Part shown: positions 13,498 through 45,844 of the stretch, one piece after another | Layout: the number at the start of each line of letters is the position of its first letter | Numbering within the stretch: the stretch's first letter is position 1 | From: Planctomycetaceae bacterium | GTDB taxonomy: Bacteria > Planctomycetota > Planctomycetia > Planctomycetales > Planctomycetaceae | Reading direction: 5' to 3' | Assembly: GCA_021732845.1 (NCBI GenBank) | Contig: JAKFUF010000047.1 | Coordinates: 1 to 64,000, forward strand | Length of the DNA stretch: 64,000 bases | Translations under genes and position numbers: made by a program | Notes under the pieces: generated by a model | Told to the model about the DNA's origin: nothing | Database searches by the model: none | What the model saw: the letters and a program-made list of their open reading frames with translations, nothing else

Positions 13498-13850
13498 GGA
13501 GAACGGCCTGAGGATTCGATCAATCTCTGTGTGGTGTCATCAAGATTACACAAATGGTGTCATTCGTTCGACGTTGTCTGGCGGAGCCTTCCGGTTCCAA
13601 GACCGCCAAAAAGTGTTGGGATTGAAGGATTGGTGCCGACTGTGCCGTCTGGGCAGAAAAATTTCGCCGCACGGGTACGGTGAAATGCTGAAACATTTTT
13701 GACCAGGCGAATTGGTGGGGTATAGCTCCCTCAGGTGTTGGACTCTGTCACGAAAGGCACGCGCCTTTCCCTGCGCAGTGCAAAATACACCGTCGCTTTT
13801 TTGCTGCCGAACGCATGGCTTCCATGCGGTGGGCACGTTCGGGATCGGCC
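13498..13850. other. Divergent intergenic region with a short direct repeat
   Basis: 353 bases between the divergent anchored coiled-coil gene and the giant FHA gene. TGGTGTCAT occurs at 13532-13540 and again at 13555-13563 in the same orientation, 23 bases apart (about two helical turns), 35-66 bases 5' of the minus-strand gene. A 7-bp hairpin (GAAAGGC/GCCTTTC, 13752-13769) is also present. No gene was recognised; the short frames lack ribosome-binding sites. Confidence 0.45.
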
Positions 13851-16800: not shown

Positions 16801-19703
16801 GCCGGGAACTCGAAGAAGCGCGAACCCAATTGCTTGTCGACCGCGAACAATTGCAGGCCGAGCGCGTCGAGTTTGCGCTCGCCGCCAACAACCACGAGCA
16901 ACAGACCGCGGCGGCAGAGCATCGCGGCAAGATGGTTGAGGAGCAGCGCCAAAGCTTGGAGGCCCGCGAATCTGCGATTGCCACCACTCGCCGGGAACTC
17001 GAAGAAGCGCGAACCCAATTGCTTGTCGACCGCGAACAATTGCAGGCCGAGCGCGTCGAGTTCGCGCTCGCCGCCGCGAGCCATAAGCAACAGACAACGG
17101 TGGCAGAGCAGCGCGGAGCGGCGCTCGAGGATCTCAGCCGGAGCCTGAATGCCCGCGAATTTGAGATTGCGGCCGCTCGCCGCGAACTCGACGAAGCGCG
17201 GGTCCAACTGACGATCGACCGCGAACAACTGCAGGCCGAGCGGACTCAGTTTGCGCTGGATTTGGACAATCAGCAGAACGAGCTGGACGGTGACAGGGGT
17301 TTTGCCGATCAGGACGCCGTGCGACAGCAGTTTGATGAACTGCGGACCAAGGCCGAAAGCGACCGTGCTCTGCTGGAAACCGAGCGCGACAAGCTGGCCC
17401 TCGCTCATTCTGATCTGGAGGCCGAGCGGGCGGCAATTGGCAGGCAGTTCGACGAACTGACCGCTCAACAGCAGGAACTGAGAGCGGCGAAGGCCCGGTT
17501 CGCATCGACTCAAGAGTCTCAACAGGACGAAGTCGAACAGGCGGCCTGCCGTCTGGCCGACCGTGAGAATGCACTGGCGGCACGAGAGCAGGAATTACGG
17601 CAGCGCGATGCGGAAAGCACCGCGCTGGCCACAGTACAGTCACAACGACATGCCGAAACCAGCATGCTGCTGGAGATTCGCACCGCAGAACTTGAGCGTA
17701 CGCTGGCGGAAGTCAATGCCCGGCAGGAGTCGCTCGAAATTCAACTTCGGTCCAGCGAGCGTGAATTGGCGGAGCGGGAACGGGTGCTGGCCGAACGGCT
17801 GATGGCTGCCGAGTTCTGTGCCGATTCGGAAGGTCAGTCGCAGTTTGCCTCTGCCTTTGAAGAGCGAGAAATCGAGATTTCGGCCACCGAAGCAGAGCTT
17901 CGTCGTCAGTCCGACGCCATCGCCGAGCAGGAGTCCAGGCTGCGTGACCGAGAGGCCGCGCTGCATGAGGAACGACAACACTTGGAGCAGCAGGAGGCCG
18001 GCCTGCGGCAGCGCGAGGAGTCGCTGCAGACGCAGACTGCCGCCCTGAAATTTGAGATGAGTGCCCTAACCACCCTTAAGGAGCAGCCGTTGCAGGCTTC
18101 CCCAGGGTCGTCCTTCGCGGCACACAACGAGTTTCTCGGCAGCGTCGACCTGCCCTTTGATCCGAATGCAATCGCTCCAGAGCATTCATCACAAGGCGGC
18201 ATGGCCTTCGCCAACAATGCCCTCGACGCCGACATTGAAGAGATGGAATTCTCGCAGCTCTCGCCCGATGAAGCGAGCCTCGATTCGTTCGAGAACTCGC
18301 CGTTCAATCATTTCCGGCCGCAGGCTGACGAAGGGCGGAACCAGCCATTCGATGCAGGTTTCGGCTGGAATCCGACGGCCGTGGCTCAAAAAGAGCCCGT
18401 TGAAGCAGATTTTCCCGTGGCCGAACGCCCAGTCGAACTTGGGAACGCTTTTCCAGAGGAAAGCCGACCACAGGCCGACGGGCTGGGTGTCACCCCGCAT
18501 TTTGTGGAAGGATTGGACGCACCTGAAGTAGCGGGTGAGAGCGACGAACCGATTGTGGTTGAGGAAGCATGGTCGACGGCTTCCGCCCTGCCGGAACGGG
18601 TTGGCCAACAATCGCCGGACTCCCTGGCAGAAGCCGAGTTTTCTCCCCGTCCCAGCTTTTCCAGAGCCGAGCAGTGGAAACACGGGGCCAACGAGCCGTC
18701 TGTCGAGGCAGCGTCACAGCCGGCTCCGAGCGTGATTGAACGCGGCACCGCGAAATCGGCGACCGATGAGGGCTCGGTCTCCATTGATGACGAAAAAGCA
18801 CTGCGATTGCGGGCCGAACTGGCACGGATGTTCGACCTGCCCGACCTGGGATCGCGGCTGCGGCCGCAGATTCCCGAAGAGGTCGATCCGCAGGAGGAGC
18901 CAGCGGATGAAGAGCATGCGGGTGACGATCCCGTCAACACAGCGGACGAGGCGGTGCAGGACGAAGCCGTGGAAGTGCCGTTCGAGGACCGGCTCCGTGT
19001 GGAATTGGACAACGTCACTCCAGAGACGCGTCCGGAAGTCGCGCCGCCACCCGCCCTGGTGGAAGCGGAGGACCAGAATTCGATTTCCGCCTATATGGAA
19101 CGGCTGCTGGCCCGCACCCGTCGCAGCGATTCGTCACGTGCAGCCGCTCCGGTCGCGGAGAAGGTGGCGGTCGAAGCCGCAAAGCCGCTGGCCGAACCCT
19201 CGCGGGCGGTCGAAGAGCAACCTGAGCCACCACCAACGCCGCGCGTGCGGCACAATACGGAGGAGATTCGTGCACAGCAGTCCTCACTGCGAAAGGTCGC
19301 CAACCTGTCGGCGCGGACTGCCGTGGCCAGTTACAAGTGGAAACGGCTCAAGTTCACTCTGGTTCTGCGTCTGGTTCTGACCGTCGCCGCCATGGCCTTG
19401 TGCATTGGGCTCTTGAGCCCGGCTGGTGACACGATTAAGAACCGGTACCTGTTCAGCGCGATGGCGGGGCTCACGGGAACATTCATGGGAGTCTGGCTGC
19501 TGCGCTCCGCCAACGACTTACGCGGCCAGCGGCAAAAGAAAAAAGCATCCACCAAGGCGCTGCAGGACGAAGCCGAGGGTGGCTCATACTCCGAAGCCGG
19601 CTCGCGATCTGATGGTGGTTCCAGAACCGACGCTTCCCACGCCAGCAAAGAGCAAAGTGGAAACGCTCTCTCCAGTGATTCCGCGGCCTCGATCGTTCCA
19701 TGA
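13851..19703 (+). CDS. Giant FHA-domain, coiled-coil, membrane-anchored protein with tandem 63-residue repeats
   Basis: About 1950 residues from the ATG at 13851 (an in-frame ATG at 13815 is an alternative). Order: an Ala/Ser-rich start; an FHA domain at roughly 39-133 (CVLGSDPDCDVQM, GIRGQHCVI, WLNDGPV, LRAGDRLAVGP), which in other proteins binds phosphothreonine; an enormous Glu/Gln/Arg/Ala coiled coil to about 1410; an acidic low-complexity region to about 1820; two membrane segments at about 1835-1856 and 1866-1884; and a short Ser-rich tail. Within the coil, residues about 734-1174 are near-perfect tandem repeats of 63 residues. It probably forms a long rod at the membrane with a phospho-peptide reader at one end. 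Ser/Thr kinases are plausible partners. It is monocistronic and convergent with the WD40 gene. Confidence 0.85.
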   Translation: MTTKSAPSSAPAAATADVANRDSIGGRAGSSAAQRPGSRTLLVLEPLYDTLNLGPILLDQPRCVLGSDPDCDVQMAIPGIRGQHCVIVTGPRRVIIKAIDLHTWLNDGPVREGVLRAGDRLAVGPLEFRVRLANADELLATVPDVNSAADSRNVKESRRQQAGSEQLTRLRVDMQADLERLEAAITQQRCELEALHKTPAPAAGKPAPIESRPGSSPLTRERALLLELRQDLQQATVELVARDHAQVLREEQWRGLAAAAVAENAAAERQARHQHALLQELALEIQSTHREVLKTQRELETGREQIRNSQREHQEECAALAEKAAKLATDTQRLQQDREALTRSEIELESLKLFLQERNAQLALQTQLQAGREADLSGARDELAIQTQQLHSDREAVEQDRRQLLTTAAARQIEAAQAECRHVEREGQIALRETKLQATAEALAHREVELETAQTEAGRRAAQLQEREADCRQREHALQLETTELERARAESTRMLAEVTQARRALVAEQEQFAQTSSAVRRDLEQAKLRAAEECQQLEHRAAEISAQTAELGVLERRHGERESELSRSERRIRIEQGDLTAARNELSELREQLQRDRNDFNIEQEGLRALDAVKAGENQAEAARLAKVHTSLNTQRELLVAEIASLNQRTEELERRHADLECRAQQLDSGKAEFVSAGVEIAYLRSRLTADQETLDAERRQLVADRSAFAAETSEIELRQSGQSRMLASAQHELELARTELAIEREQLEAERDRVARVGAKQTEEAAEIDRRTSELTEQHDRLSVRESEIAASQDEIKASRAQLTIDREQLEAEHAELALAAANHERQSTAAEQRITTLEEQCRSLEAREAELAATRQALDEARTQLTTDREQLEAECVEFALATASHEELMTEAEERRAELSDQLRNADARDSEITAMRRELEEARTQLIVDREQLQAERVEFALAANNHEQQTAAAEHRGKMVEEQRQNLEAREFEIAATRRELEEARTQLLVDREQLQAERVEFALAANNHEQQTAAAEHRGKMVEEQRQSLEARESAIATTRRELEEARTQLLVDREQLQAERVEFALAAASHKQQTTVAEQRGAALEDLSRSLNAREFEIAAARRELDEARVQLTIDREQLQAERTQFALDLDNQQNELDGDRGFADQDAVRQQFDELRTKAESDRALLETERDKLALAHSDLEAERAAIGRQFDELTAQQQELRAAKARFASTQESQQDEVEQAACRLADRENALAAREQELRQRDAESTALATVQSQRHAETSMLLEIRTAELERTLAEVNARQESLEIQLRSSERELAERERVLAERLMAAEFCADSEGQSQFASAFEEREIEISATEAELRRQSDAIAEQESRLRDREAALHEERQHLEQQEAGLRQREESLQTQTAALKFEMSALTTLKEQPLQASPGSSFAAHNEFLGSVDLPFDPNAIAPEHSSQGGMAFANNALDADIEEMEFSQLSPDEASLDSFENSPFNHFRPQADEGRNQPFDAGFGWNPTAVAQKEPVEADFPVAERPVELGNAFPEESRPQADGLGVTPHFVEGLDAPEVAGESDEPIVVEEAWSTASALPERVGQQSPDSLAEAEFSPRPSFSRAEQWKHGANEPSVEAASQPAPSVIERGTAKSATDEGSVSIDDEKALRLRAELARMFDLPDLGSRLRPQIPEEVDPQEEPADEEHAGDDPVNTADEAVQDEAVEVPFEDRLRVELDNVTPETRPEVAPPPALVEAEDQNSISAYMERLLARTRRSDSSRAAAPVAEKVAVEAAKPLAEPSRAVEEQPEPPPTPRVRHNTEEIRAQQSSLRKVANLSARTAVASYKWKRLKFTLVLRLVLTVAAMALCIGLLSPAGDTIKNRYLFSAMAGLTGTFMGVWLLRSANDLRGQRQKKKASTKALQDEAEGGSYSEAGSRSDGGSRTDASHASKEQSGNALSSDSAASIVP
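16050..17372 (+). repeat. Seven tandem 189-base repeats inside the giant coiled-coil gene
   Basis: Units begin at 16050, 16239, 16428, 16617, 16806, 16995 and 17184, an exact 189-base (63-codon) period. The anchor is the codon block for DREQL, which recurs every 189 bases with its Arg codon at 16086, 16275, 16464, 16653, 16842, 17031 and 17220. The units at 16617 and 16806 differ at only a handful of bases, showing recent duplication. The outer units are diverged, and the last is recognisable only in its first half. Confidence 0.92.
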
Positions 19704-22608: not shown

Positions 22609-24309
22609 ATGGCGACGGGAAGAATGGATTCGACTGTCAAGGCCACGGCGACAGACTCTACGGCCGGTACAGGTGAATCCGGAGTCTCTGCCGCCAGCCC
22701 AAGCCAGCCCACATGGTTTGCCGGACTGCGGATTGTTGCTGCCGCAACCCTCTTAAGCCGCGTACTCGGCTTGTTGCGTGACACCGCGCTGGCCCGCGTG
22801 TTCGGGCTCACTCCCATTGGCGACGCCTTCCTCTTCGCCTTCCGCATTCCCAATCTCGCCCGCCGACTCTTCGGCGAGGGTGCCCTCTCCGCAGCGTTTC
22901 TGCCGGTCTTTGCCAGGGTGCTTCCGAGTGAGAAGACCGAACATGCCGACCGGCGCCAGGCGTGGGTGGTGGCGAGCGGAGTTTTTGCGGCACTGGCCGC
23001 AGTGCTGGCGTTGCTGACGCTGGTTGGCGAAGGGATCTTATGGGGGCTGACGTTTGTCGAATCCACACATCCCGAATGGCGGCTGCTGTTGGGGCTGACG
23101 GCCGTCATGCTGCCCTACGCCGTGCTGATTTGTCTGGCGGCACAGGTCACGGCGGTGCTGCAGGGGCTCGATCATTTCACGGTCCCGGCCCTCGTGCCCG
23201 TGGCTCTCAATGTCTGCCTCATTCTGGCAGCGTGGGGCGTTGTCCCGTCGCTCACCGATTCGGTCGACCGCGCTTATGCCCTGGCGTGGTGCGTGGTGGT
23301 CTCGGGAGTGGTGCAGTTGGCCCTGCAGGTTCCGGTCATGCAGCGGTTTGGCTATCGCTTCGACTGGGACTGGCAGGCCGCGAAGGGGCATGTCCAAGAA
23401 GTTGCGTGGGCCATGGCACCGGTCACACTGGGCTTGTCGATCACCCAGATCAACACGTTTCTCGACAGTGCGATCGCCATTTCGTTGTCGGCATCAAAAG
23501 CCGGCGCGGTGCTGTGGCCCGGCGGACCGGCGTATCCCCTGCAGGCGGGTGCTGTCTCGGCGCTGTACTATGGCGAACGGATGTACCAGTTTCCTCTGGG
23601 CGTATTTGGCGTGGCACTCAGCACGGTGCTGTTCCCCCGCATGTCGCAGCATGTCGCCCGGGGAGACATGCGGGAACTTCAGCACGACCTCACGCTCGGC
23701 ATGCGGCTCGTCCTCACGATTGGACTGCCCGCCAGTGCGGGTTTGATGCTGCTGGCAACGCCGATCACCGCGTTGCTGTTTCAAAGCGGCGAATTCACGG
23801 CCGACGATGCCGCACGAACGGCGGCAATGATCGCCACCTACAGCGCGGGGATTTGGGCGTACTGCGGAATTCCAATTCTCTATCGCGGATTCTATGCCCT
23901 GGCCGACCGCCAGACCCCCGTGCGGGTCGGCCTGCTGGCCGTGGCCTGTGATTCATTCTTGAACCTGACGCTCATCTGGCCGCTGGCGGAGCGGGGGCTG
24001 GCATTGAGTACGGTCTTGACCGCTGTCGTTCAATTGCTGGTTCTCACGTGGGCGCTGCAAAGTCGAATCGGCAACTGGAATTGGGCGGCGATCCGCGGCA
24101 CGGCCATACGTGCGAGCCTGTGTACGTTGTTCATGACCACCGTATGCGCAGCCGTGTTGCAGTGGCCGCTTATCAGTGGCGACACGCGCACTGGTCGGCT
24201 CTTCGCCGTTGTGGCTCCCGTGCTGTTGGGAATTGCCAGCTATTTCGCCGCCGCGAAAATCGTTGGTCTGCGCGAGATCTGGTGGCTCATCCGGCGCGAG
24301 AAGCCGTAG
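22609..24309 (+). CDS. murJ: Lipid II flippase MurJ
   Basis: 566 residues with about 13-14 hydrophobic segments. The N-terminal block AAATLLSRVLGLLRDTALARVFG is the MurJ/MviN signature, followed by DAFLFAFRIPNLARRLFGEGALSAAFLPVFA with the essential arginines. Central and C-terminal repeats of the MOP exporter fold are visible (GVFGVALSTVLFPRMSQH; LLATPITALLFQSGEFTADD). MurJ moves lipid II across the inner membrane for peptidoglycan synthesis, which is of interest because planctomycete walls were long disputed. The first 35 residues are Thr/Ser-rich and unlike the family; a second ATG at 22624 is possible. It follows the small unknown gene directly. Confidence 0.93.
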   Translation: MATGRMDSTVKATATDSTAGTGESGVSAASPSQPTWFAGLRIVAAATLLSRVLGLLRDTALARVFGLTPIGDAFLFAFRIPNLARRLFGEGALSAAFLPVFARVLPSEKTEHADRRQAWVVASGVFAALAAVLALLTLVGEGILWGLTFVESTHPEWRLLLGLTAVMLPYAVLICLAAQVTAVLQGLDHFTVPALVPVALNVCLILAAWGVVPSLTDSVDRAYALAWCVVVSGVVQLALQVPVMQRFGYRFDWDWQAAKGHVQEVAWAMAPVTLGLSITQINTFLDSAIAISLSASKAGAVLWPGGPAYPLQAGAVSALYYGERMYQFPLGVFGVALSTVLFPRMSQHVARGDMRELQHDLTLGMRLVLTIGLPASAGLMLLATPITALLFQSGEFTADDAARTAAMIATYSAGIWAYCGIPILYRGFYALADRQTPVRVGLLAVACDSFLNLTLIWPLAERGLALSTVLTAVVQLLVLTWALQSRIGNWNWAAIRGTAIRASLCTLFMTTVCAAVLQWPLISGDTRTGRLFAVVAPVLLGIASYFAAAKIVGLREIWWLIRREKP

Positions 24310-32404: not shown

Positions 32405-33979
32405 TTACCAAGCCCCACTGCAGGCCGCATATCCCCAGGCTGTGAACAGCCCGGCCGTGACCGCGAGCACCGCGATCAGCAGATTGCGGCGGGTGTCCGA
32501 AAGGCGTCTTAGAGATTGCGCGGGCTCGGTGACCGGCACTGCCTGGGGACGAGCAGGGACGCGCTGGGGAACTTTGGCGGGAACCGGGAGCGGCTCCAAT
32601 TTCTTGCGTGGCTGCGCTTCAACGGCCACACGCTTGACCGGCGTCTCCATGACGGCTGTCACCCCGCTGGTCTGTGCGACGGCAGATTTGGCGAGAGTGG
32701 TTTTGGAAGTCGGCGAGCCGGAGATCACGGTCTCGGCCACGCTTTGCACGCTGCGAAGAGCGGGGACGGCGGGCAGGGGCTTGGAGCGGCGGCGAACGAT
32801 GGGGGTCCCTTCCACGTCGCTTGACACTTGGTCCGCCGAGGGCTGCGGGGCCGATTTCGCCGGGGAGGCCGGCACCGCGGACATTCCGCCCAGCGTCGCC
32901 ACCAGTCCAAGATTCTTTTGCTTCCAATTGTCCGGTGCGTTGGCCACAAGCCACTGGCCCAGAGCGGCCGCCGCTTCCGCAGCGGTCTGATAGCGGCTGG
33001 CGGCGGACTTGGCCATCATTTTCTCCAAGACGGCCACAAGCGAATCTGGCAGCTCCGGGCGGCGGCGTTTGACCGACGGCGGGGTCTTGGTCTGGTGCGC
33101 CAACAGCCGCTGAACCAGCGTCCCCTCCGTGAAGGGCGGATGTCCGCAAAGCGCGAAATACAGGGTGCAGCCGAGGCTGTAGATGTCGGCGCGGGCGTCC
33201 ACCTTGTGGCTGTCGATGGCCTGCTCCGGGGCGAGGTAATCGGCGGTGCCCAACACCTTCTCGTCGTGCTTGATCGTCAGCGACTCGACTTCCGTGGAAC
33301 GGAAAAAGCGCGCCAAGCCCAGGTCAAGCAGCTTGACCGTTCCCTGAGCATCGATCAGCAGGTTCTCGGGTTTGACATCGCGATGGACCAAGCCCGCCAG
33401 ATGGGCGTGATGCAGCCCTTCCGCCGCCTGCCGGACAATGTCCACCGCCGCCACAACGTCCAAAGTCCCCTGTTCACGCTGCAGTTTTTCCAGGTTCTTG
33501 CCTTCGACGTATTCCATCACGAGGTAATGAACGTCGGTCCCGCCTTCGGACTGCATGTCAACATCGTAGGCGCGGACGATGTTGGCATGGTTGAGCGAAG
33601 CCACGGCGCGGGCCTCGCGGTGGAAGCGACCAAGATACGAAGTGTCCTTGACCTTGGCGGCGGGCAGCACCTTGATGGCGCAGCGGCGTTCCATCATCGT
33701 GTGTTCGGCGAGATACACCGAACTCATCTCGCCCGCGCCCAGCAGCGAGAGCAGCTTATAACGGCCCAGCAAGAATCCCTTGTGCCGCCCCTGCAGCAGT
33801 TTCTCCGCCTGCCACTCGGTCAGCACCTGGCGGCGCACCAACGCCTCCGCCAGGACGGCCGCCGAATGCGTTTCGCTCCCTGGAATCTCCAGCAGCACCG
33901 CATCGAGCCGGCCGGCTTCAACCAGTCCGCTCTGACGAGCACCAGCGAGAAAGGAATTGACGGTGAGCTTGAGGGACAT
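32405..33979 (-). CDS. Membrane-anchored Ser/Thr protein kinase
   Basis: 524 residues from the ATG at 33979, GGAG about 8 bases upstream. Residues 1-70 form the helical planctomycete-type N-terminal region (RRQVLTEWQAEKLLQGRHKGFLLG). The kinase domain follows: glycine loop GAGEMSSVY at 81-89, catalytic K103 in CAIK, MEYVEG hinge, HRDVKPEN at 199-206 with D201, and DLG at 219-221 in place of DFG. APEQAID marks the activation-segment end. A Pro/Ala/Ser-rich linker leads to a single C-terminal membrane helix (LLIAVLAVTAGLFTAWGYAA) with almost no extracellular part. It should phosphorylate Ser/Thr in cytosolic proteins; FHA proteins at 13851 and 57153 are conceivable readers. It lies downstream of the TPR/FKBP block on the same strand, separated by a CCAATGA repeat. 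Confidence 0.92.
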   Translation of the reverse strand: MSLKLTVNSFLAGARQSGLVEAGRLDAVLLEIPGSETHSAAVLAEALVRRQVLTEWQAEKLLQGRHKGFLLGRYKLLSLLGAGEMSSVYLAEHTMMERRCAIKVLPAAKVKDTSYLGRFHREARAVASLNHANIVRAYDVDMQSEGGTDVHYLVMEYVEGKNLEKLQREQGTLDVVAAVDIVRQAAEGLHHAHLAGLVHRDVKPENLLIDAQGTVKLLDLGLARFFRSTEVESLTIKHDEKVLGTADYLAPEQAIDSHKVDARADIYSLGCTLYFALCGHPPFTEGTLVQRLLAHQTKTPPSVKRRRPELPDSLVAVLEKMMAKSAASRYQTAAEAAAALGQWLVANAPDNWKQKNLGLVATLGGMSAVPASPAKSAPQPSADQVSSDVEGTPIVRRRSKPLPAVPALRSVQSVAETVISGSPTSKTTLAKSAVAQTSGVTAVMETPVKRVAVEAQPRKKLEPLPVPAKVPQRVPARPQAVPVTEPAQSLRRLSDTRRNLLIAVLAVTAGLFTAWGYAACSGAW

Positions 33980-34015
33980 GGGGACGCTCCGAGAATGCGA
34001 GAGGTGATCGGGGGA

Positions 34016-34183
34016 ATGACCCAATGACCAATGAAATAATGACCAATGAAATAATGACCAATGTTTTTATGAACGCGCGAAAACGAGGTATACGACGTTG
34101 TTCTGTCTGTTTCACCCACATTTATGGCTTTGGCTTCGTCATTCCACGTGCCTAAAGGAATTCGACATTGGGTCATTGGTCAT
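34016..34183. repeat. CCAATGA heptamer repeat, two inverted arms, 5' of the kinase gene
   Basis: The left arm at 34016-34063 contains four CCAATGA-type units, two of them separated by AATAATGA spacers. The right arm at 34163-34183 carries the inverse (CATTGGGTCATTGGTCAT). About 100 bases separate the arms. The left arm begins 37 bases 5' of the kinase start, so it lies in the kinase leader. It fills most of the gap between the kinase and the FKBP gene. Confidence 0.75.
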
Positions 34184-34277: not shown

Positions 34278-34697
34278 TCAGTCATTGCGCAGCACCACGA
34301 TCTCAAACTCCAGCGTCTCCCCCGCCAGCGGGTGATTCGCATCCAGGACGGCGTGGTCCTTCTCCAGCACGCGGACCCAGACATCCAGTTCCTTGTCGTC
34401 GACCACGGCCACGAGTTGTTCTCCTTCTTCGATGCGCTCCGGCAGTTCGCGGCGGGAGACCACCTGTTGCAGTCGGGCATTGCGGATCCCGAATGCCTGT
34501 TCCGGCCCCACTGTCACGCAGCGCCGCTCCCCCGCCCGCATCCCCAACACAGCGTGGCTCACACCGGCGATCACGCCGTCGCCGCCAGCCACGAACTGCA
34601 CCGGCTCGCGATGCATGGACGTTTCGACGACCACCCCGCTGCTGGAGCGTGCCGTGTAATGCACACTGACTGCCTGTCCCGCGCGAACTTCACTCAT
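34278..34697 (-). CDS. slyD: FKBP-type peptidyl-prolyl isomerase, SlyD-like
   Basis: 139 residues from the ATG at 34697. The FKBP half (VSVHYTARSSSGVVVETSMHREPVQFVAGGDGVIAGVSHAVLGM) and the inserted chaperone (IF) domain are present, followed by the hallmark DANHPLAGETLEFEIVVL. The His-rich metal-binding tail of E. coli SlyD is absent. The enzyme catalyses prolyl cis/trans isomerisation and chaperones folding in the cytosol. Its start codon overlaps the stop of the TPR gene (ATGA), so translation is coupled and the two are one operon. Having a folding helper translationally coupled to a TPR protein suggests it serves the proteins of this locus, but that is inference. Confidence 0.9.
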   Translation of the reverse strand: MSEVRAGQAVSVHYTARSSSGVVVETSMHREPVQFVAGGDGVIAGVSHAVLGMRAGERRCVTVGPEQAFGIRNARLQQVVSRRELPERIEEGEQLVAVVDDKELDVWVRVLEKDHAVLDANHPLAGETLEFEIVVLRND

Positions 34698-36400
34698 GAT
34701 GCCACCTTGGAAGAAGGCTTCTTTCGCTGTTTCTTTTGACGGCGCTTCGACTTGCTGGCAACCGGCTGAAACAGCGAGTTCTCCAGTGACACGGCCGCCT
34801 CCGCCAGGAGCGTGACTTCCGCAGCCACCACATCCGGCGCGGCCATCCGTGGGTCGGCATCCGGGAGCGCATGCCACCCATACAGTTCGTCGATCGCCAG
34901 TGTTTCGGTCGTGTTCACGGGCGTTGGCGGCTGCGTGCCGCCGAACGCCCGTTGCAGCCGCTGTCGAATCTCCACGACATCGGCATGCTCGGAGCCCAGG
35001 CGTGATTCCCGGATCTGCAGGGCTCGCTTCAACGCCACCTCGGCCGCGGCCGCTTCATGGCGGGACAATTCCACCTCGGCCAGTCCCAGCAGCGTTCGCG
35101 CCACCTCAAGATGCTGCATGCCGAGCGATTGCTCCTGGATGGCCAGCGCCTGCAGATGCCAATGGTGGGCCCGTTCGAAATCGCCCTGCGCCGCGGCCAG
35201 TCCTGCCAGGAGATTCAAAGTCGTGGCGATCTGCGGATCGGCGGCAACTCGTTTCGACTGCTGCAGCTTCAGGGTCCGGGTCCACATCTGACGGGCATGC
35301 TCGAACTGCCCCGCCGCCTGATACATCTGTCCGAGCAGTCGCAGCGTCACGGCGATCTGCGGATGCCCCGGACCCAAGAGTTTGACATCGAGCGCCAGTG
35401 CCTCCCGCAGGGCTGTGTCCGCTTCCCGCAGGTTGCGGTTGGCCAGATGCAGTTCGGCAATGCCACGCAGGGTGCGTGCGAGGTGCGGATGGCCGTGGGG
35501 GTGAATCTGCCGGTGGATGGCGAGGGCCTGCCGATAGTGTTTCTCGGCTGAGGGGAGACGTCGGGCTTCGATCTTCAGCAGTGCCAGGTTGCACAGGGCC
35601 TGTGCGACCAGCGGGTGGCACAAACCGAACGCCCGGGTGCAGAGGTTCAACGCCTCGCGGGTGTACTTCTCGGATTCCGTAAATCGCCCCTGCATCCGCA
35701 AGACTTCCGCCAGGTTGCTGAGCGGACGGACCAAAGCGGGATCTTTTTTTCCGACAGACGGTGTGCTGAGCCGCAGGTTCTGGCGGAACAGCCGTTCTGC
35801 CATGTGATACTCGCCGCGTGCGGCATGCAGCGCGCCCAGATTGTTCAGCGTTCGCAAGACCAGCGGGTGCGTGAAGGGCAGCTCGGCATCTTCCCGGAGC
35901 AGAGCCAGCGCGCGTTCGCCATGGGCTGTCGCCTCGCGATACTTGGCTTGCTCGAAACAGACTTCCGCGAGGTGATTCCAGAGTGTGCCCAGGACCTCAC
36001 CGGGAGGCGGTTCGACATGGGACTGGGTGACGCAGGCGGCGGTGAGCCACGCTTCGGCCCGCGCCCAGTTGCCGGACGCAATCGCGAGGGCCGCCAACTG
36101 CTTCAACGTCGTGAACAGCCGCGGATCCTCTGCACCGTAGGCCAGCGTTCGGAGCCGCAGCAATTCCTCATACAGGGGCTCGGCGTCGGCAATCCGCCGC
36201 TGCCCCGCATACCAGTCCGCGAGGCGTTGCATTGGTTCCAGGAGACGGCGGTCGTCAGCCGGGAATTGCTGCCGCGCTTCATCCAAGTTGCCGATCAGAA
36301 ACAGTTCCATCGACTCGCAGGACGGCGTCAACTCGATTGCCACATCGTTTGGCACTGCATCTGCCGGCTGGCCCGCGCCTGCCGAATCCGGGCTGGGCAT
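34694..36400 (-). CDS. Tetratricopeptide-repeat protein
   Basis: 568 residues from the ATG at 36400, three bases after the stop of the 902-residue protein. From about residue 55 it consists of TPR or kinesin-light-chain-like repeats of about 42 residues: LVRPLSNLAEVLRMQGRFTESEKYTREALNLC, LVAQALCNLALLKIEARRLPSAEKHYRQAL, HLARTLRGIAELHLANRNLREADTALREAL and more, at least nine in all. The C-terminus is Lys/Arg-rich (SKSKRRQKKQRKKPSSK). There is no signal peptide; it is a cytosolic protein-interaction scaffold. Tight packing on both sides (3-base gap upstream, 4-base overlap downstream) means it is expressed with the 902-residue protein and SlyD. Partners are unknown but probably encoded in the same operon. 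Confidence 0.9.
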   Translation of the reverse strand: MPSPDSAGAGQPADAVPNDVAIELTPSCESMELFLIGNLDEARQQFPADDRRLLEPMQRLADWYAGQRRIADAEPLYEELLRLRTLAYGAEDPRLFTTLKQLAALAIASGNWARAEAWLTAACVTQSHVEPPPGEVLGTLWNHLAEVCFEQAKYREATAHGERALALLREDAELPFTHPLVLRTLNNLGALHAARGEYHMAERLFRQNLRLSTPSVGKKDPALVRPLSNLAEVLRMQGRFTESEKYTREALNLCTRAFGLCHPLVAQALCNLALLKIEARRLPSAEKHYRQALAIHRQIHPHGHPHLARTLRGIAELHLANRNLREADTALREALALDVKLLGPGHPQIAVTLRLLGQMYQAAGQFEHARQMWTRTLKLQQSKRVAADPQIATTLNLLAGLAAAQGDFERAHHWHLQALAIQEQSLGMQHLEVARTLLGLAEVELSRHEAAAAEVALKRALQIRESRLGSEHADVVEIRQRLQRAFGGTQPPTPVNTTETLAIDELYGWHALPDADPRMAAPDVVAAEVTLLAEAAVSLENSLFQPVASKSKRRQKKQRKKPSSKVAS

Positions 36401-36403
36401 GAG

Positions 36404-39112
36404 CTAGTTCTCCGAGAAAATGTCGAAACTATGATTGGATGGCAGTTCTGATTCATTCGCATCTGGACGCTTTGACATCACCCCTTCGTGGCTCGATTCG
36501 TGCGAATTGCGTTCGAGTGACGCCCTCAACTGGTTCAGTTCGGCGCGGCTCTCGCAGAAGTCGAGCCTGTGGAGCGTGACCTGCTCGAGCCGTTGGAGCC
36601 GGCGGGCCAGATCCGCTCGCACAGGTGCCGGGACCGCCTGGTCTTCGCAGGCCCGCTGGACTTCGGCTTGAATCTCCCGCAGCTCGTTGTGCTGAGCCAC
36701 GCGGCACTCTTCGAGGCTGGCGTCCCGCTTCGCCCGGAGGGACTCAATGTCCAGCGGTCCGGACCACACATCCAACTCCAGGAGCCGCCCAGTGGCGACG
36801 TGATCGCCCAGGCTGCATTGAAGGTCGAACGCCTGCAACCAGCTCAACGCATCGGACTGGAGGTACCGGAGCACACTCCGTTCCAGGACCGGCAGTTCGA
36901 CCGTCGGCATCCAGTGGTCGTCCATCCGCAGGTCGGCCATCTTCAACAGTTCGGCATGCACCACGCGGCGCGGGTCGGGCTCCCGCAGCGGCAGCGGAGC
37001 CCGGGTGGCGAACTGGTCTCGCAGCCGGCAGATCGCCTTGCGGCACTCAACCACGCCGGTCTTGACCAACAGCGGAGTTTGGTCATGCACAAACAGGTCG
37101 AGTTCCAGCAGCACCTCGTCGGCGCGTTGCAGCACTTCGTTTCGGAGCTCCTCGCCATCGGGCGACAGCAGCAGCGAACCCGTTGCCGCACGGGCGTTCG
37201 AGACCCGCAGCCACCGCGCGGCGAGGTCGCTGGCGTCGCGGATGGCGGCCGCCATTTCGGGGGGCAGCAGGATGCCCCGTGATGCCCCCGCAGGCTGCGA
37301 CTGGCCAGCCGTGGGTTCAACACGCACTTCCGCCGCCAGCCGCTGAATTTCCTGGCGGACCCAGCCCCGCTCCTGATCCCGCTGCTCCCGCACTGGCAAC
37401 AACAGGCGATCAATGATCTGGAACGCTTCCTGCCATTTGCTCCAGTTCAGCGCGGCTTCGCCGTGTCGCACCGCGGTGCTGGGATTGAGCGTCCAGTGGG
37501 CGTGTGTGAACAGGGGCGAAGACCGCTTGTACTGCACTGCATTCCTTGACAGTGCGGTGTACCAGTCTTCCGTCTCCTGTCGAAGTTCCGCGAGTTCGGC
37601 TTCACAGGATGGGTCGGCACATTGGGGCATGAACGCCTCGGCGGCGTTGCCCTGCATCCGGTCGCCATAGACGGCCACCCGGCTGCAGAAGTTGTAGAGC
37701 TGCGCCAATCCGGGGTGGATGCGGAACGAACGCAGAATGTTCGACGCCGCGGTGGACGACGCGACCAGTGCCGGGCCGAGCGTCGCGGCACGCAGCAGGA
37801 AGCTGATCCCCTGTTGCCAGTCGGCGGAACCTTCCGTCAGCATTCCCGTCCGAAATTTCGAGAAGTCCTCCTCGAGAGCCCGCGACATCTCACCCTTCGG
37901 ATAGCACACCTTGGGGCTCAGGGCCAGGGCGTGAATGAGCCACGACGGCGGCACGGCATGTCCAGCACCGCCACGCTCTTCCAGGCAGCGGGTCAGATGG
38001 AATGCAAGCCCCGTCCGATTCTCGGCCAGCAGATGCTGGACCAGTTCCGCCTGCAACCGGTTGCGTTCGCTCCCTGAAGCATTCTCGACAGCATGCGCCA
38101 TCCCGGCCAGCCGCAATGACACCGACGACGGCGAGTTTCGTGGCGGATCGCGCGGGGCTTCGGCAAAGGCGCTGGCGTTGCCCTTGATGACAATCCGCTC
38201 GCTGGTCGCCGGCAGCGGCTTTTTCACCGGTGTTTCATCCCATACCGACTGCGAGGCTGAGTCCTCCGGGTCATCAAACACGGATACGTGTGGGACGAGC
38301 TGGGACGAGGGCGGCTGTACCGGAAGTTGGGTGGCGGGAGCCGGAACTGGTCGCGCCACGGGGATGGCAGCCAATGCCACGGGAGCCTTCAACATCGCCG
38401 GAACGGTCACCACCTTCGCGATGGGAACCGCGGGTTTGATGGCTGCGGCAACGACCGCGATTGGTGTGGGTTGAACAGGAACATGGGCCACGCGGACAAC
38501 CCGGCCACGGGCGATCGCCGTCGCCAGCGGACGGCCGAAGCATTCGGTCACCTGATCGTTGAGCTGCGTCCAACGGTCGTCGGACAAGTCGTTCGCCTGG
38601 TCGACCAGCTCCAGCACGGCACACAGCGGATGTTTGCCGGAACGCAGGTGTTCAACGTCCTGGGGCAGTTCGGCTGCGGGAGCAGATTGCAGCAGGTTGA
38701 GCAGGCGGGCGGCCCGGTCCTGACAGGTCAAGAGGACCGGTGCGTTCTCCGCCGCACCGCTGACATGTTGGAGTTGCAGCACGTCCTGAAGCAGGGACCG
38801 CAACTGCTGCCGAGAGCGCAGATCGAACTGAGCCACGAGTTCGTCGAGCGTCACTGGATGTGTGGCTTCGCCCATGAGCTGCGAAGCGAGGAACACCGAC
38901 CGATTGCGAAACTCGGCCATTTCACCGAGCAGTTCCGCGGCGACTGGCGTTCCGCTGGCGGCGAGTTGTTCAGCGCTGGACGCGAACTTGTCAGCCAGCC
39001 TGCTCCGCCACGCCTGGAGCAGATCGAGTTCGACCTGCCAGCGTTCAAGCGCCGCGGCCGTGGCGACGTTTGAGGTCGATCGTTCCGGAGAGACAGGGTG
39101 TGGCGGCAGCAT
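36404..39112 (-). CDS. Large unknown helical protein with Pro/Val/Ala linker, paralogue of the 39702-40286 product
   Basis: 902 residues from the ATG at 39112. Residues about 20-205 are helical (ERWQVELDLLQAWRSRLADK; TLDELVAQFDLRSRQQLRSLLQD), ending with HPLCAVLELVDQANDLSDDRWTQLNDQVTECFGRPLATAIARG. A linker of about 110 residues, rich in Pro, Val and Ala, separates this from a long, mostly helical second part (about 340-880). That part contains WLIHALALSPKVCYPKGEMSRAL, FLLRAATLGPALVASSTAASN and HWTLNPSTAVRHGEAALNWSKWQEAFQII. No ATPase, nuclease, kinase or membrane motif is seen. The N-terminal domain resembles the 194-residue protein upstream, most clearly in its last 45 residues. I do not recognise the family. 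It begins the tight part of the operon, with the TPR and SlyD genes immediately after. Confidence 0.82.
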   Translation of the reverse strand: MLPPHPVSPERSTSNVATAAALERWQVELDLLQAWRSRLADKFASSAEQLAASGTPVAAELLGEMAEFRNRSVFLASQLMGEATHPVTLDELVAQFDLRSRQQLRSLLQDVLQLQHVSGAAENAPVLLTCQDRAARLLNLLQSAPAAELPQDVEHLRSGKHPLCAVLELVDQANDLSDDRWTQLNDQVTECFGRPLATAIARGRVVRVAHVPVQPTPIAVVAAAIKPAVPIAKVVTVPAMLKAPVALAAIPVARPVPAPATQLPVQPPSSQLVPHVSVFDDPEDSASQSVWDETPVKKPLPATSERIVIKGNASAFAEAPRDPPRNSPSSVSLRLAGMAHAVENASGSERNRLQAELVQHLLAENRTGLAFHLTRCLEERGGAGHAVPPSWLIHALALSPKVCYPKGEMSRALEEDFSKFRTGMLTEGSADWQQGISFLLRAATLGPALVASSTAASNILRSFRIHPGLAQLYNFCSRVAVYGDRMQGNAAEAFMPQCADPSCEAELAELRQETEDWYTALSRNAVQYKRSSPLFTHAHWTLNPSTAVRHGEAALNWSKWQEAFQIIDRLLLPVREQRDQERGWVRQEIQRLAAEVRVEPTAGQSQPAGASRGILLPPEMAAAIRDASDLAARWLRVSNARAATGSLLLSPDGEELRNEVLQRADEVLLELDLFVHDQTPLLVKTGVVECRKAICRLRDQFATRAPLPLREPDPRRVVHAELLKMADLRMDDHWMPTVELPVLERSVLRYLQSDALSWLQAFDLQCSLGDHVATGRLLELDVWSGPLDIESLRAKRDASLEECRVAQHNELREIQAEVQRACEDQAVPAPVRADLARRLQRLEQVTLHRLDFCESRAELNQLRASLERNSHESSHEGVMSKRPDANESELPSNHSFDIFSEN

Positions 39113-39250
39113 CGAGACAGCCTCGAGAAGTGGGTGATTTCTTGTCCTGTCGCACGGCCTTCCCAGGCCGTGGATGCATTCAATCGACGTGCCGCGCCAG
39201 GTTCACCAGCGGGCAGAGCTTGCCAGTGGGCCAGGATGCCCATCCAACGG

Positions 39251-39541
39251 TCAATTCCGGCTCAGCACGGCGTGGATGCTTTCACCCTCGACGAGGTCAT
39301 GCGCCAGTTCCTGTTCAAACGTCAGGGCGGACGAACGGTTGGGGGCAGGAGCTGAAACCTGTGTGGAAGACTGCGACGCGGACATGGGAGCCGGTACTCC
39401 GTCAGCGTCCATCTTGCCGTTGAGGGCGGCGATCAGTGCCTCGTAGACCGCCTGTTGGACGACAGGGGAGTTGAACGAGTTGACCACCGAAGCCATGTTC
39501 GGCAGGTTGGTGAGCAGGGTGCGATAACGAAGTGCGCTCAT
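39251..39541 (-). CDS. Small unknown protein
   Basis: 96 residues from the ATG at 39541. It starts SALRYRTLLTNLPNMASVVNSFNSPVVQQAVYEALIAALNGK, probably two helices, then a Pro/Ser/Ala linker (APMSASQSSTQVSAPAPNRSS), and ends with an acidic helix (ALTFEQELAHDLVEGESIHAVLS). No membrane segment or signal. It lies on the same strand between the 194- and 902-residue paralogues, 138 bases before the latter and 160 after the former, so it is likely part of the same transcription unit. Nothing identifies its role; a small adaptor with two interaction ends is one possibility. Composition and frame use look genuine. Confidence 0.68.
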   Translation of the reverse strand: MSALRYRTLLTNLPNMASVVNSFNSPVVQQAVYEALIAALNGKMDADGVPAPMSASQSSTQVSAPAPNRSSALTFEQELAHDLVEGESIHAVLSRN

Positions 39542-39701
39542 TTCGAGTAGCCCTGGTTTGAATCGTTTTGAAAGGTGTGCTGAACGAGACGCAGAAAAAA
39601 CAACGGTGAGATTGATGTCCATCCAGCAGCGAGCGCCTTCAGGGACAACGCATGAAGTTGTTGGTCAAGCCGGCCGGTCCGGCAAAGTGGTGCGGGCATG
39701 G

Positions 39702-40286
39702 TCATTCTTTGTCCGGTCCCTGGCACTTCAGTTTTCGGCGGGCGATGGCGGTCGCCAGTTCCCTGCCAAACGCCTGTGTGACGATCTCGTGCAGCGCGTC
39801 CCAGGTCTGGTCATCCAGGCGGGCGTCGTCTGTCACCAAAGTCAGCACCGCCCGCAGCGGATGATGCTCCTGAAGAACCTCCGCCGTGCATTGCCGCACA
39901 CACGTACGGTCGTCCTCCTCAAGTTCGCGCCGCAGTTCCCAGGCGAGCTTTCGGGCGGCCTGCAAGGCGGCGACTTCACGGCCTTCGACATGCCGGATGG
40001 CTTCGACACGGTCCAGTACGCCAAGCGCCCGCCGCGTCTGCTGACGCGATTGAAAGCACCGTTCCATCTCGAGAACCGAGACGGGCACGGGGCCGTCTGG
40101 CTGCAACTGCGCGGCCGCTTCGGCAAACCGCTGTGAAAAGTCGCGGAGTTCCGTGAGCAGGTCGGCCGCTGGAACTTCACTCTGCTCTCGCAGCCGTTTG
40201 GCGGTGGCCGACAGGGCTGCGGCGAGCCGCACGCTCCGATCGCGGAGTTCAAGCAGGGGAGGCGGCATCAGATCCAGATCAGACAT
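39702..40286 (-). CDS. Unknown helical protein, short paralogue of the 902-residue protein's N-terminus
   Basis: 194 residues from the ATG at 40286 (SDLDLMPPPLLELRDRSVRL follows). It is helical throughout. The segment HHPLRAVLTLVTDDARLDDQTWDALHEIVTQAFGRELATAIARRKL aligns position by position with the 902-residue protein's HPLCAVLELVDQANDLSDDRW ... FGRPLATAIARG. The preceding parts also match in layout (helical bundle with VPAADLLTELRDFSQRF versus TPVAAELLGEMAEFRNR). The long in-frame extension upstream of 40286 runs through the ATTTTCG repeat and has no protein character, so it was rejected. It is the first gene of the minus-strand block and is divergent from the trans-sulfuration enzyme gene. 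Function unknown. Confidence 0.78.
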   Translation of the reverse strand: MSDLDLMPPPLLELRDRSVRLAAALSATAKRLREQSEVPAADLLTELRDFSQRFAEAAAQLQPDGPVPVSVLEMERCFQSRQQTRRALGVLDRVEAIRHVEGREVAALQAARKLAWELRRELEEDDRTCVRQCTAEVLQEHHPLRAVLTLVTDDARLDDQTWDALHEIVTQAFGRELATAIARRKLKCQGPDKE

Positions 40287-40552: not shown

Positions 40553-40695
40553 ATTTTCGATTTTCGATTTTCGATTTTCGATTGGTGGTACCGCCAAAAT
40601 CGAAAAGTTGCCGAAGGCGATCTCTCTCAGAACAGTTTCGCTTGCGCGATCGGCCCACGTGTCACGGCTGCAATCGAAAATCAAAAATCGAAAAT
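40553..40695. repeat. ATTTTCG heptamer repeat, two inverted arms (copy 2)
   Basis: Four consecutive ATTTTCG units occupy 40553-40580. The inverse units (CAATCGAAAATC ... CGAAAATGG) occupy 40671-40695. The 90-base interior contains its own palindrome, GGTGGTACCGCC. It sits in the 615-base divergent gap between the 194-residue protein gene (start 40286) and the trans-sulfuration gene (start 40902). The rest of that gap holds no recognisable gene. Confidence 0.8.
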
Positions 40696-43836: not shown

Positions 43837-44176
43837 CTGTCTCACTGAAGCATGATTCCGAGCAGTATTCAGTTCCCTTCGTGAACGCGGTTGGTGCCCG
43901 CTCATGAAGGCTTCCCAGTCGACAAGTTGCACACGTTCCCGTCTTGGGCTGTTCCCCGGAAGGGCCTGCGGAGCATTCGTGCGCTGTCATCCCATTCAGT
44001 TGCGCCGGTCTACCCGTGCGCCGAGTCCTCCGCGCGTCCTGTGCCGATCGTCTATTGGCCTGGGTGCAGCGGCGGGGTTGGCACGCGATGGAGCGGCGCG
44101 TCGATGGACGGCAGCAGGGCTATAAGACCAGCCCGCGATGCAGACGAGCGGAGGCGTGTGCGCGGAGGGTGGCAAG

Positions 44177-45844
44177 ATGCAACCCGAAGGCACGTTCATG
44201 GTGTCAGCGAAGGAACTGTCCCCCACGGACGCTGTGCGGGGGCAACTGGTGCAGAGTCTTGGCAGCCAGGTTTATCAACAATGGTTTCACGACCGCACAC
44301 ATTGGGAGTTGCACGATGCCGAGTTGACCGTCTGGGTACAGAATGCCTTCCTGCAGCGCTGGTTGAAGAAGCAGTTCCGCGCCCCGTTGGCCGCCGCTGC
44401 CGAAGTGGTGCTCGGCAATCCGGTCACCGTTCGTTTTGAAGTCGCGGCCGCTGGCGAGGCGGCCCCAGTGTCCGGCATTGCGCCGAGCCACGAGGTCAGC
44501 CAAGTGGCGGGGATCCCTTTCTCAGGGTCATCCCCCGCTCCTGCCCTGCGTTGCCCTCTCGTGCCCTCACTGGCCCGTATCCAGGCACCGCCCTCGAACG
44601 GGGCTGGCATCAACTCGGCGGTGGTGCGCCCCGTGGTCGACCCGGTCTTGGCCGCGACCGTCGCCTTTCCCGCAGAAGGTGCGGCGATGCTGGAAGTGGC
44701 AGCCGCAGTTGTCACTCCGGTTGCACCCGTGGCTTCAGCAACCCCAGCGGGCACACGGACCGAACCGGTGCGTCTGGAAGCTCCCGACTACACCCCCTCG
44801 GGCCGCCGAAGGTTTGCCGACCTCTCCGAATTCGTGGTCGGCTCATGCAATGAAATGGCGATGTCCGCGGCCCAGCGTGTCTGTCAGCGGTTGGGTGCCC
44901 AGGACGGCGCGCTGTTCATCTGCGGTCCGGTGGGGACCGGCAAGACGCACCTGTTGGAAGGCCTCTATCGGCAAATCCGTCGGCAGCAGCCGGCCATTCA
45001 GGTGCTGTATCTGACCGCCGAGAACTTCACGAACTACTTCACCGAAGCCCTGCGGAACCACACGCTGCCAGCCTTCCGCCAGAAGTTTCGCAACGTCGGC
45101 GTCCTGATCGTGGACGATGTCGATTTTCTGGAAGGCAAGCGAGTCGTTCAAGAAGAATTCTTGCACACCTACAAGCAGCTCACGTCACTGGGACGACAGG
45201 TGATCGTCGCCAGCGATCGCCACCCGCGGCTCATCTCCAAACTCTCAGAGGAACTGATCACGCGCTTTCTCTCCGGCGTCGTTTGCCGATTGGAAGCACC
45301 TGATGCGGTGACACGGGAGGCGATCGCCCTGCGAAAAGCTGGCAAGATGAACCTGGAGTGTACTCCCGAAGCTCTCAAATACGTGGCTCAGCGGTTCACC
45401 CGCAATGTCCGGGAACTGGAGGGGGCGCTCAACTGTCTGCAGACCTGGCAGTCCATGACCAGCAAGCGTGTGGGAATTACCGCAGCGCGGCAGGTGTTGG
45501 GTGACTTGGAACGCGACTGCACGAAAGTGATCCGCCTGCCCGATGTGGAGCGGGTCGTCTGTTCGACCTTTGGAATTGAACCGGCAGACCTGCGGTCGTC
45601 GCGGCGGACAAAGTCGCTGACCCAGCCACGGATGCTGGCGATGTACCTCGCCAGAAAACTGACCGCGGCCGCCTACGCGGAGATTGGTGAGTTTTTTGGC
45701 GGCCGCAACCACAGCACCGTGATCTCCGCCGAACGCAAGATCGACGAGTGGCTGCAGGGCGCAGAGCCGATCCGCGTTTCGGCACAACAGCTCTCCATGG
45801 GCGAGCTGCTGGCCTCGCTCGAACAGCAGCTTCAGGCAGGATGA
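44177..45844 (+). CDS. dnaA: Chromosomal replication initiator DnaA with extended linker
   Basis: 555 residues from the ATG at 44177 (GGAGG about 9 bases upstream; an ATG at 44198 is possible). Domain I is at about 20-85 (QVYQQWFHDRTHWELHDAELTVWVQNAFLQRWL). Domain II is an unusually long Ala/Pro/Val-rich linker to about 205. The AAA+ domain has Walker A GPVGTGKTH with K256, Walker B VLIVDDVDF near 309-317, and the arginine-finger region ITRFLSG. Domain IV carries the DNA-binding signature SRRTKSLTQPRMLAMYLARKLT ... GGRNHSTVISAERKI. It binds DnaA boxes and opens the origin. The gene is not next to dnaN, recF or gyrB; purA follows after 125 bases. Confidence 0.93.
   Translation: MQPEGTFMVSAKELSPTDAVRGQLVQSLGSQVYQQWFHDRTHWELHDAELTVWVQNAFLQRWLKKQFRAPLAAAAEVVLGNPVTVRFEVAAAGEAAPVSGIAPSHEVSQVAGIPFSGSSPAPALRCPLVPSLARIQAPPSNGAGINSAVVRPVVDPVLAATVAFPAEGAAMLEVAAAVVTPVAPVASATPAGTRTEPVRLEAPDYTPSGRRRFADLSEFVVGSCNEMAMSAAQRVCQRLGAQDGALFICGPVGTGKTHLLEGLYRQIRRQQPAIQVLYLTAENFTNYFTEALRNHTLPAFRQKFRNVGVLIVDDVDFLEGKRVVQEEFLHTYKQLTSLGRQVIVASDRHPRLISKLSEELITRFLSGVVCRLEAPDAVTREAIALRKAGKMNLECTPEALKYVAQRFTRNVRELEGALNCLQTWQSMTSKRVGITAARQVLGDLERDCTKVIRLPDVERVVCSTFGIEPADLRSSRRTKSLTQPRMLAMYLARKLTAAAYAEIGEFFGGRNHSTVISAERKIDEWLQGAEPIRVSAQQLSMGELLASLEQQLQAG

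Follow-up and report, generated by a model that had tools for sequence, protein, structure and literature searches.

We describe a six-gene cluster, A to F, in a 64,000-nucleotide stretch of DNA from a member of the Planctomycetaceae (GenBank assembly GCA_021732845.1, contig JAKFUF010000047.1, positions 1 to 64,000 of the forward strand; the whole stretch is called the window below). The cluster is conserved within the family, and in most relatives that carry it in full the gene immediately upstream of A encodes a bactofilin, a neighbor that is absent from the window and hence invisible in the window sequence alone. The reading that we favor, and that we hold with about even confidence, is that A to F form a two-module Planctomycetaceae scaffold system for envelope organization, kinase controlled and usually linked to a bactofilin, of which the window carries a bactofilin-less copy. 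What is new is the bactofilin-linked cluster with its new partners. The features of the cluster in the window are as follows.

39702 to 40286, minus strand: A, a helical protein of 194 amino acids (aa) and no known family; open reading frame (ORF) homologous to the N-terminal domain of C
39251 to 39541, minus strand: B, 96 aa, a small adaptor-like protein; ORF, 19-sequence alignment
36404 to 39112, minus strand: C, 902 aa, predicted to be all-helical; ORF, alignment and AlphaFold2 models
34694 to 36400, minus strand: D, 568 aa, a tetratricopeptide repeat (TPR) protein; Pfam TPR_12, E 7e-58
34278 to 34697, minus strand: E, 139 aa, an FKBP-type prolyl isomerase, SlyD/SlpA-like; Pfam FKBP_C, E 9.6e-15
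34015 to 34063, no strand: tandem repeat AATGACCAATGAAAT, 15 bp x 2.7 at 34023 to 34063, between E and F, which sets F apart from the A-E run
32405 to 33979, minus strand: F, 524 aa, a Ser/Thr kinase (from the ATG at 33979); Pfam Pkinase, E 5e-50

All six frames are open, and the layout is as an initial annotation of the region had described it: six minus-strand genes with a 3-base gap between C and D, an ATGA overlap between D and E, and a repeat ahead of the kinase. The coordinates given there, 34278 to 40286, span A to E, and kinase F falls outside them. The other intergenic gaps measure 160 (A-B), 138 (B-C), and 298 (E-F) bases. The proposed relationship between the first and third proteins also held up, in that A is homologous to the first ~200 residues of C (BLASTP E 3e-16, 34% identity over 171 aa), and when C was used as the query in its own genome, the only matches were C itself and A. 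So did the absence of recognized domains: B and C have no Pfam match, A has sub-threshold Pfam matches only, and scans with Pfam, NCBIfam, and PADLOC returned nothing usable for any of the three. Upstream of A lie a tandem repeat, ATTTTCG x 4.4, at 40553 to 40583 and a second 7-base repeat at 40672 to 40695.

We looked for the cluster in a family sample of 170 Planctomycetaceae genomes representing 58 genera and in a phylum sample of 392 genomes. A search with the single C sequence found a match in 8 of 59 genomes, its own included, and the loci fetched kept the gene order; a single-protein contig scan with C gave no match. A profile of C matched 24 of the 170 family genomes, in 15 genera, or 22 genomes in 13 genera after two matches had been set aside, one covering 48 positions in a 542-aa protein whose architecture is otherwise different (G161), perhaps a distant relative, and the other an A-like domain on a 1495-aa protein (G482). 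The B profile matched 30 family genomes in 14 genera, with one match per genome. In the phylum sample, the C profile found seven genomes, six of them in the family (the window genome and G161 included), and the seventh match (G417) was taken as chance, as it covers 36 positions in a frame that runs antisense to a longer ORF; B was found in five genomes, all inside the family. With these two profiles, the neighborhood was found nowhere outside the Planctomycetaceae in the 392 phylum genomes.

Within the family, A, B, and C stand in the same order in all 18 genomes that carry the three genes on one contig (10 genera), a conservation of order that is far beyond chance. D comes next in 16 of these 18 loci (only its start in G464) and is absent in G030 and G477, and E and F are present in 17 of the 18, the contig of G464 ending inside D; 5 of the 17 encode E on the opposite strand. 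Four further C-positive genomes show only fragments of the cluster. In G016, A-B is on one contig and C-D on another, with neither E nor F next to them; in G017, a partial C is followed by D-E-F at the edge of the contig; in G467, A, C, and E stand together, B lies on a different contig, and no cluster kinase was found; and in G475, B and a portion of C are present. For four pairs of relatives, none of which involves the window, the ratio of nonsynonymous to synonymous substitution rates (dN/dS) was 0.05 to 0.33 in 24 of 24 gene comparisons, a rough estimate with dS >1 in 23 of them; purifying selection is seen in every comparison, dS being saturated in most. The initial annotation had raised the question of whether the order of A to D holds across the planctomycetes, and the answer is that it holds within the family but was not found outside it in the phylum sample. 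The neighborhood extends beyond close relatives all the same, and its distribution bears out the idea of one conserved, uncharacterized system that includes paired, related helical proteins.

That the six genes are ordinary neighbors without a joint function is hardly credible on these data. C, D, and E are tightly packed, but the A-B, B-C, and E-F gaps and the inverted E of some loci are what unconnected neighbors might show; set against this are the A-B-C order, kept over 10 genera although the C proteins of the relatives are only 24 to 36% identical to the window C, and the joint absence of A, C, and E from the reduced loci described below.

The bactofilin gene is directly upstream of A in 13 of the 18 full loci, and the products of these genes pass the PF04519 cut-off. 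A family bactofilin profile matched 22 of the 170 genomes, every one of them among the 30 B-positive genomes; the 140 B-negative genomes gave no match (Fisher 2e-21; counted by genus, 10 of 10 within the 14 of 58, 2e-8; relatedness is not corrected for in either value). These 22 genomes comprise the 13 with full loci, seven of the genus g318, G473, and G467, where the bactofilin matches lie at the ends of other contigs. In 18 of 21 rows the bactofilin starts with MF(G/A) and nearby lysines; of the exceptions, L121 is a frame left open by the contig edge, L120 has a start that is uncertain, and L122 is cut at the other end, with no such start seen in it. The membrane-targeting peptide of Caulobacter, as given in the passages of PMC12448750 available, is MFSKQAKS, in which F2, K4, and K7 matter. 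A small protein, family M, precedes the bactofilin in 9 of 18 loci (L019, L020, L021, L060 to L063, L068, and L069); its N-terminal region shows a single hydrophobic segment by eye, and none of the three copies scanned has a Pfam match.

Eight B-positive genomes have no match to the family bactofilin profile, namely, the window genome (G000), G016, G025, G338, G471, G475, G502, and G542. Five of these (G000, G025, G338, G471, and G542) carry full A-F loci, and the profile finds no bactofilin elsewhere in them; G338 has only a sub-cut-off PF04519 match (22.3 bits, in a 684-aa frame), and the other four have none. In the window genome, neither PF04519 nor the family profile detected a bactofilin in an assembly that is 95.7% complete and in 262 contigs, and it is possible that an assembly gap hides one elsewhere in the genome, though not beside A.

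A second set of loci, which we call reduced, divides the cluster along a different line. Six were read, five of the seven from genus g318 and that of G473. The g318 form is bactofilin-B-D-F and the G473 form is bactofilin-B-F; in G492, B was seen by profile search alone and has an internal stop, the G495 contig ends in D, and in G496 and G498 (both g318) the bactofilin, B, and kinase matches are on one contig per genome. A and C are absent from the expected place in 6 of 6, and E is absent from the 5 of 5 that reach the kinase (the sixth is cut earlier), the rest of those genomes not having been searched for E. By comparison, E is present in 17 of the 17 A-B-C loci that are not cut by a contig end, a pattern that fits the earlier suggestion of a folding helper coupled to the helical proteins. 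Because E tracks A and C in this way, and because A, C, and E stand together in G467 without adjoining B or F, we group A-C-E as one module and bactofilin-B-F as the other: B and the kinase look like a bactofilin-linked core and A-C-E like a second module. A lone B without the conserved tail described below was seen in another genome of genus g318, G502 (L148, 3616 to 3969), in which no bactofilin or cluster kinase was found; the B of G016, likewise without a cluster kinase found, retains that tail.

The direction of change was read from the kinase. The kinase tree unites 25 cluster rows in a single clade with a support of 100/100; the 17 paralogues sampled from the family fall outside it, and the kinases of the reduced loci are nested inside. 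The clade excludes a 26th cluster-labeled row, L080_CL_591, a second and distant kinase in its locus; with that row labeled as cluster the tree requires two label changes, and a single change suffices in only 7% of bootstrap trees. L143 and L144, two short kinases from outside the cluster, are also placed outside the clade. Since the reduced-locus kinases are nested, the absence of A, C, and E from those loci is most likely a secondary loss. Bactofilin has most likely been lost several times, e.g., in G025 beside G434 and G435 (same genus) and in G471 beside G469 and G470, and probably also in the window genome, where A to F persist. These inferences of loss rest on the kinase tree, not on a species tree.

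The losses bear directly on a different account, in which A to F are a bactofilin-independent machine: A and C would be the actual scaffold or coat, F and B would regulate it, and the bactofilin would be an optional anchor in some genomes. We consider this a doubtful but real possibility. It draws on the five full loci, the window included, that keep A to F with no bactofilin that the family profile can find, and on C itself, which is large, conserved, and predicted to be all-helical. It is at odds with the reduced loci, where B and F exist alongside a bactofilin without the supposed scaffold, and with the scatter of the bactofilin-less loci on the kinase tree, as secondary loss predicts.

F is a Hanks-type kinase with an intact domain. 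Its catalytic residues K104, H200-R201-D202, and D220 are invariant in 12 of 12 aligned rows (residue numbers follow a working copy, P0006, with one extra leading residue relative to the 524-aa F). A C-terminal hydrophobic stretch is visible by eye in 11 of the 12; the most hydrophobic 19-residue stretch starts at residue 501 (P0006), with a mean of 1.87, and this segment is likely to be a membrane anchor, although by the same measure the linker of C comes to 1.82. At E <1e-100, 127 of the 170 family genomes match F, the cluster kinases included. Among the matches listed at that threshold, the paralogues share the N-terminal region and kinase domain with F at about 48 to 64% identity, but they are mostly frames of about 900 to 1300 aa, whereas the F homologues of the cluster have 400 to 636 aa and belong to the separate clade. 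That the cluster kinases group in one clade, separate from the related kinases sampled, makes control of the system by the kinase, which the initial annotation had ventured, a plausible prediction.

The B alignment (19 sequences) shows conservation in an N-terminal part around LLTNLPxMAxVVNxFxS and in the C-terminal tail, L..G(D/E)(S/N)IH, which a variable linker separates; L13, P14, N21, F23, L83, G86, I89, and H90 are among the invariant columns, and the (S/N)IH tail is retained in distant and reduced loci. A Protein Data Bank (PDB) sequence search with B found no relatives, and none were found in the viral contigs searched. The A alignment holds 16 sequences. C consists of an A-like domain (residues 14 to 207), a low-confidence linker (210 to 328), a second helical domain (328 to 878), and a short C-terminal tail that is conserved only loosely among relatives. 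The AlphaFold2 model of the whole protein has a predicted local distance difference test score (pLDDT) of 75.7 and a predicted template modeling score (pTM) of 0.58; that of domain 2 has a pLDDT of 84.3 and a pTM of 0.80. The structure check that had been suggested for the unknown proteins was run for C and gave a predicted all-helical protein with no confident match among solved structures: Foldseek returned nothing with E <0.001, a PDB sequence search gave one non-significant row, and the best VIA-align Z was 8.6 over 69 residues. Against chains that include TPR-type repeats, the first part of domain 2 gave Z values of 6 to 8 over about 105 to 140 residues and thus weakly resembles helical repeat proteins; helical models commonly give scores of this kind. 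The conserved tails of B, C, and D were inspected as possible docking motifs, and no partner could be assigned. The A domain also occurs outside the cluster: in G482 it opens the 1495-aa protein mentioned above (L073, 6038 to 10525), a second A-like gene adjoins it (10522 to 11169), and B, D, and E are not there.

E scores 55.1 bits against FKBP_C (Pfam cut-off, 21.1) and is thus a member of that family. It had been named as a SlyD FKBP; the FKBP domain is clear and the best matches are indeed PRK15095 (63.3 of 125 bits) and PRK10737 (56.8 of 174 bits), but both stay far below the NCBIfam equivalog cut-offs for SlyD/SlpA (FkpB), and E differs from those proteins in its linkage to A and C. The stretch NHPLAGETL in E is presumably a SlyD-family feature.

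D is part of the system in most loci, as the proposal of a TPR scaffold implied, but it is not essential, being missing from 2 of the 18 A-B-C loci and from the bactofilin-B-kinase form. Its C-terminal tail is built around HVL in every complete row but that of the window (16 of 17), and two reduced-locus rows have HAL. D in several relatives has a longer N-terminal region with weak similarity to AAA (AAA_22) or DUF7779, and together with its TPR array this recalls the STAND NTPase-TPR proteins (FxSxx_TPR, NF040586); the window D nonetheless scores 112.9 against the NF040586 cut-off of 300, and a pattern search of the first 400 residues found a Walker A motif in none of the 18 D rows, one of which is a fragment. 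The likeness raises the idea of an anti-phage defense system, with D as a STAND-like TPR sensor, F as the effector or signal, and the helical proteins as accessories. F does match PADLOC kinase models (best, PD-T4-6, E 2e-103), which we judge to be broad; among the other five proteins, D alone has PADLOC matches, to a generic TPR model and, weakly, to Cas7. Given also the missing Walker A motif, the single B match in each of the 30 genomes, and the presence of all bactofilin-profile genomes among these, a defense role is very improbable.

Starting from the gene conservation and order, the bactofilin linkage, the patterns of loss, the kinase clade, and the predicted folds, we infer the contacts, the phosphorylation, and the envelope role of the two-module scaffold as follows. 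In the first module, the small adaptor B would most likely sit on a bactofilin polymer attached to the membrane and hold the membrane-anchored kinase F to the scaffold, and F would phosphorylate a partner kept there. In the second module, A and C, folded with the help of E, would build a large helical assembly, and in most genomes D would tie the two modules together. The outcome would be one envelope site at which phosphorylation switches growth or another surface process. In the window genome, another anchor may substitute for the bactofilin, or A and C may suffice.

Several points weigh against the two-module reading. The five genomes with A-B-C-D-E-F and no bactofilin indicate that the bactofilin is not required, and G016 has A, B, C, and D yet no cluster kinase that we could find. 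The loci share ancestry, so that the co-occurrence counts are of non-independent events. At its cut-off, PF04519 picks out 24 of the 170 genomes, the 22 of the family profile plus two B-negative ones with weak matches, G432 (in a frame of 5304 aa) and G511; matches below the cut-off occur in eight further genomes, which include G338 and G475. Finally, the interactions and the phosphorylation are predictions from sequence.

A bolder variant, which we think unlikely, would make A and C a new bacterial family of scaffold or filament-accessory proteins that coat or replace bactofilin filaments, with a folding factor of their own and a kinase-adaptor pair that switches assembly by phosphorylation, and that work bactofilin-free in the window genome. 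Another account would place the complex away from the envelope, for example in the cell cycle, with F, the TPR protein, and the helical scaffolds as a signaling complex and the bactofilin as a positional landmark. Bactofilins also act in chromosome organization, according to the abstract of PMC12448750, and in the window dnaA (44138 to 45844, plus strand) is about 4 kb from the cluster; dnaA is, however, not among the ten flanking proteins of six relatives' loci, a small sample, and we regard this account as improbable.

Among characterized systems, the two-module scaffold most invites comparison with those in which a bactofilin gene adjoins a conserved partner gene, as it does in most relatives of the window cluster. 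In the stalked budding bacterium Hyphomonas neptunium, bacA lies beside lmdC, an M23 peptidase gene, and the pair shapes the stalk and bud (passages of PMC10945521). The partners in our relatives are instead an adaptor, a Ser/Thr kinase, a TPR protein, an FKBP, and two helical proteins, the window locus has no bactofilin, and no M23 peptidase was found among 10 flanking proteins of the six loci scanned, a small sample. The Caulobacter bactofilins BacA and BacB are a membrane scaffold that recruits PbpC at the stalk pole (passages of PMC12448750); the relatives' bactofilins start MF..K, akin to the Caulobacter targeting peptide, but there is no cell-wall synthase among the six window genes, which have a kinase in its place. 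The bactofilin partners named in published work, as far as the available passages of PMC12448750 and PMC10945521 go, are cell-wall enzymes, and the titles, abstracts, and passages that we consulted, those of PMC4460556 included, describe no bactofilin-kinase cluster in planctomycetes.

Elsewhere in the window, a 1962-aa open frame (13815 to 19703, plus strand) has an FHA domain near its start and otherwise only an overlapping Yop-YscD_cpl model at E <1e-4; FHA domains bind phosphothreonine. MurJ is encoded at 22609 to 24309.

Many planctomycetes divide by budding. If the two-module reading is true, it would establish a family-wide link of bactofilin to a Ser/Thr kinase, an adaptor, and protein families with no known domain, and so offer a testable route to a kinase-controlled bacterial cytoskeleton, in which natural losses, of the bactofilin in the window and of A-C-E elsewhere, already divide the system into modules.

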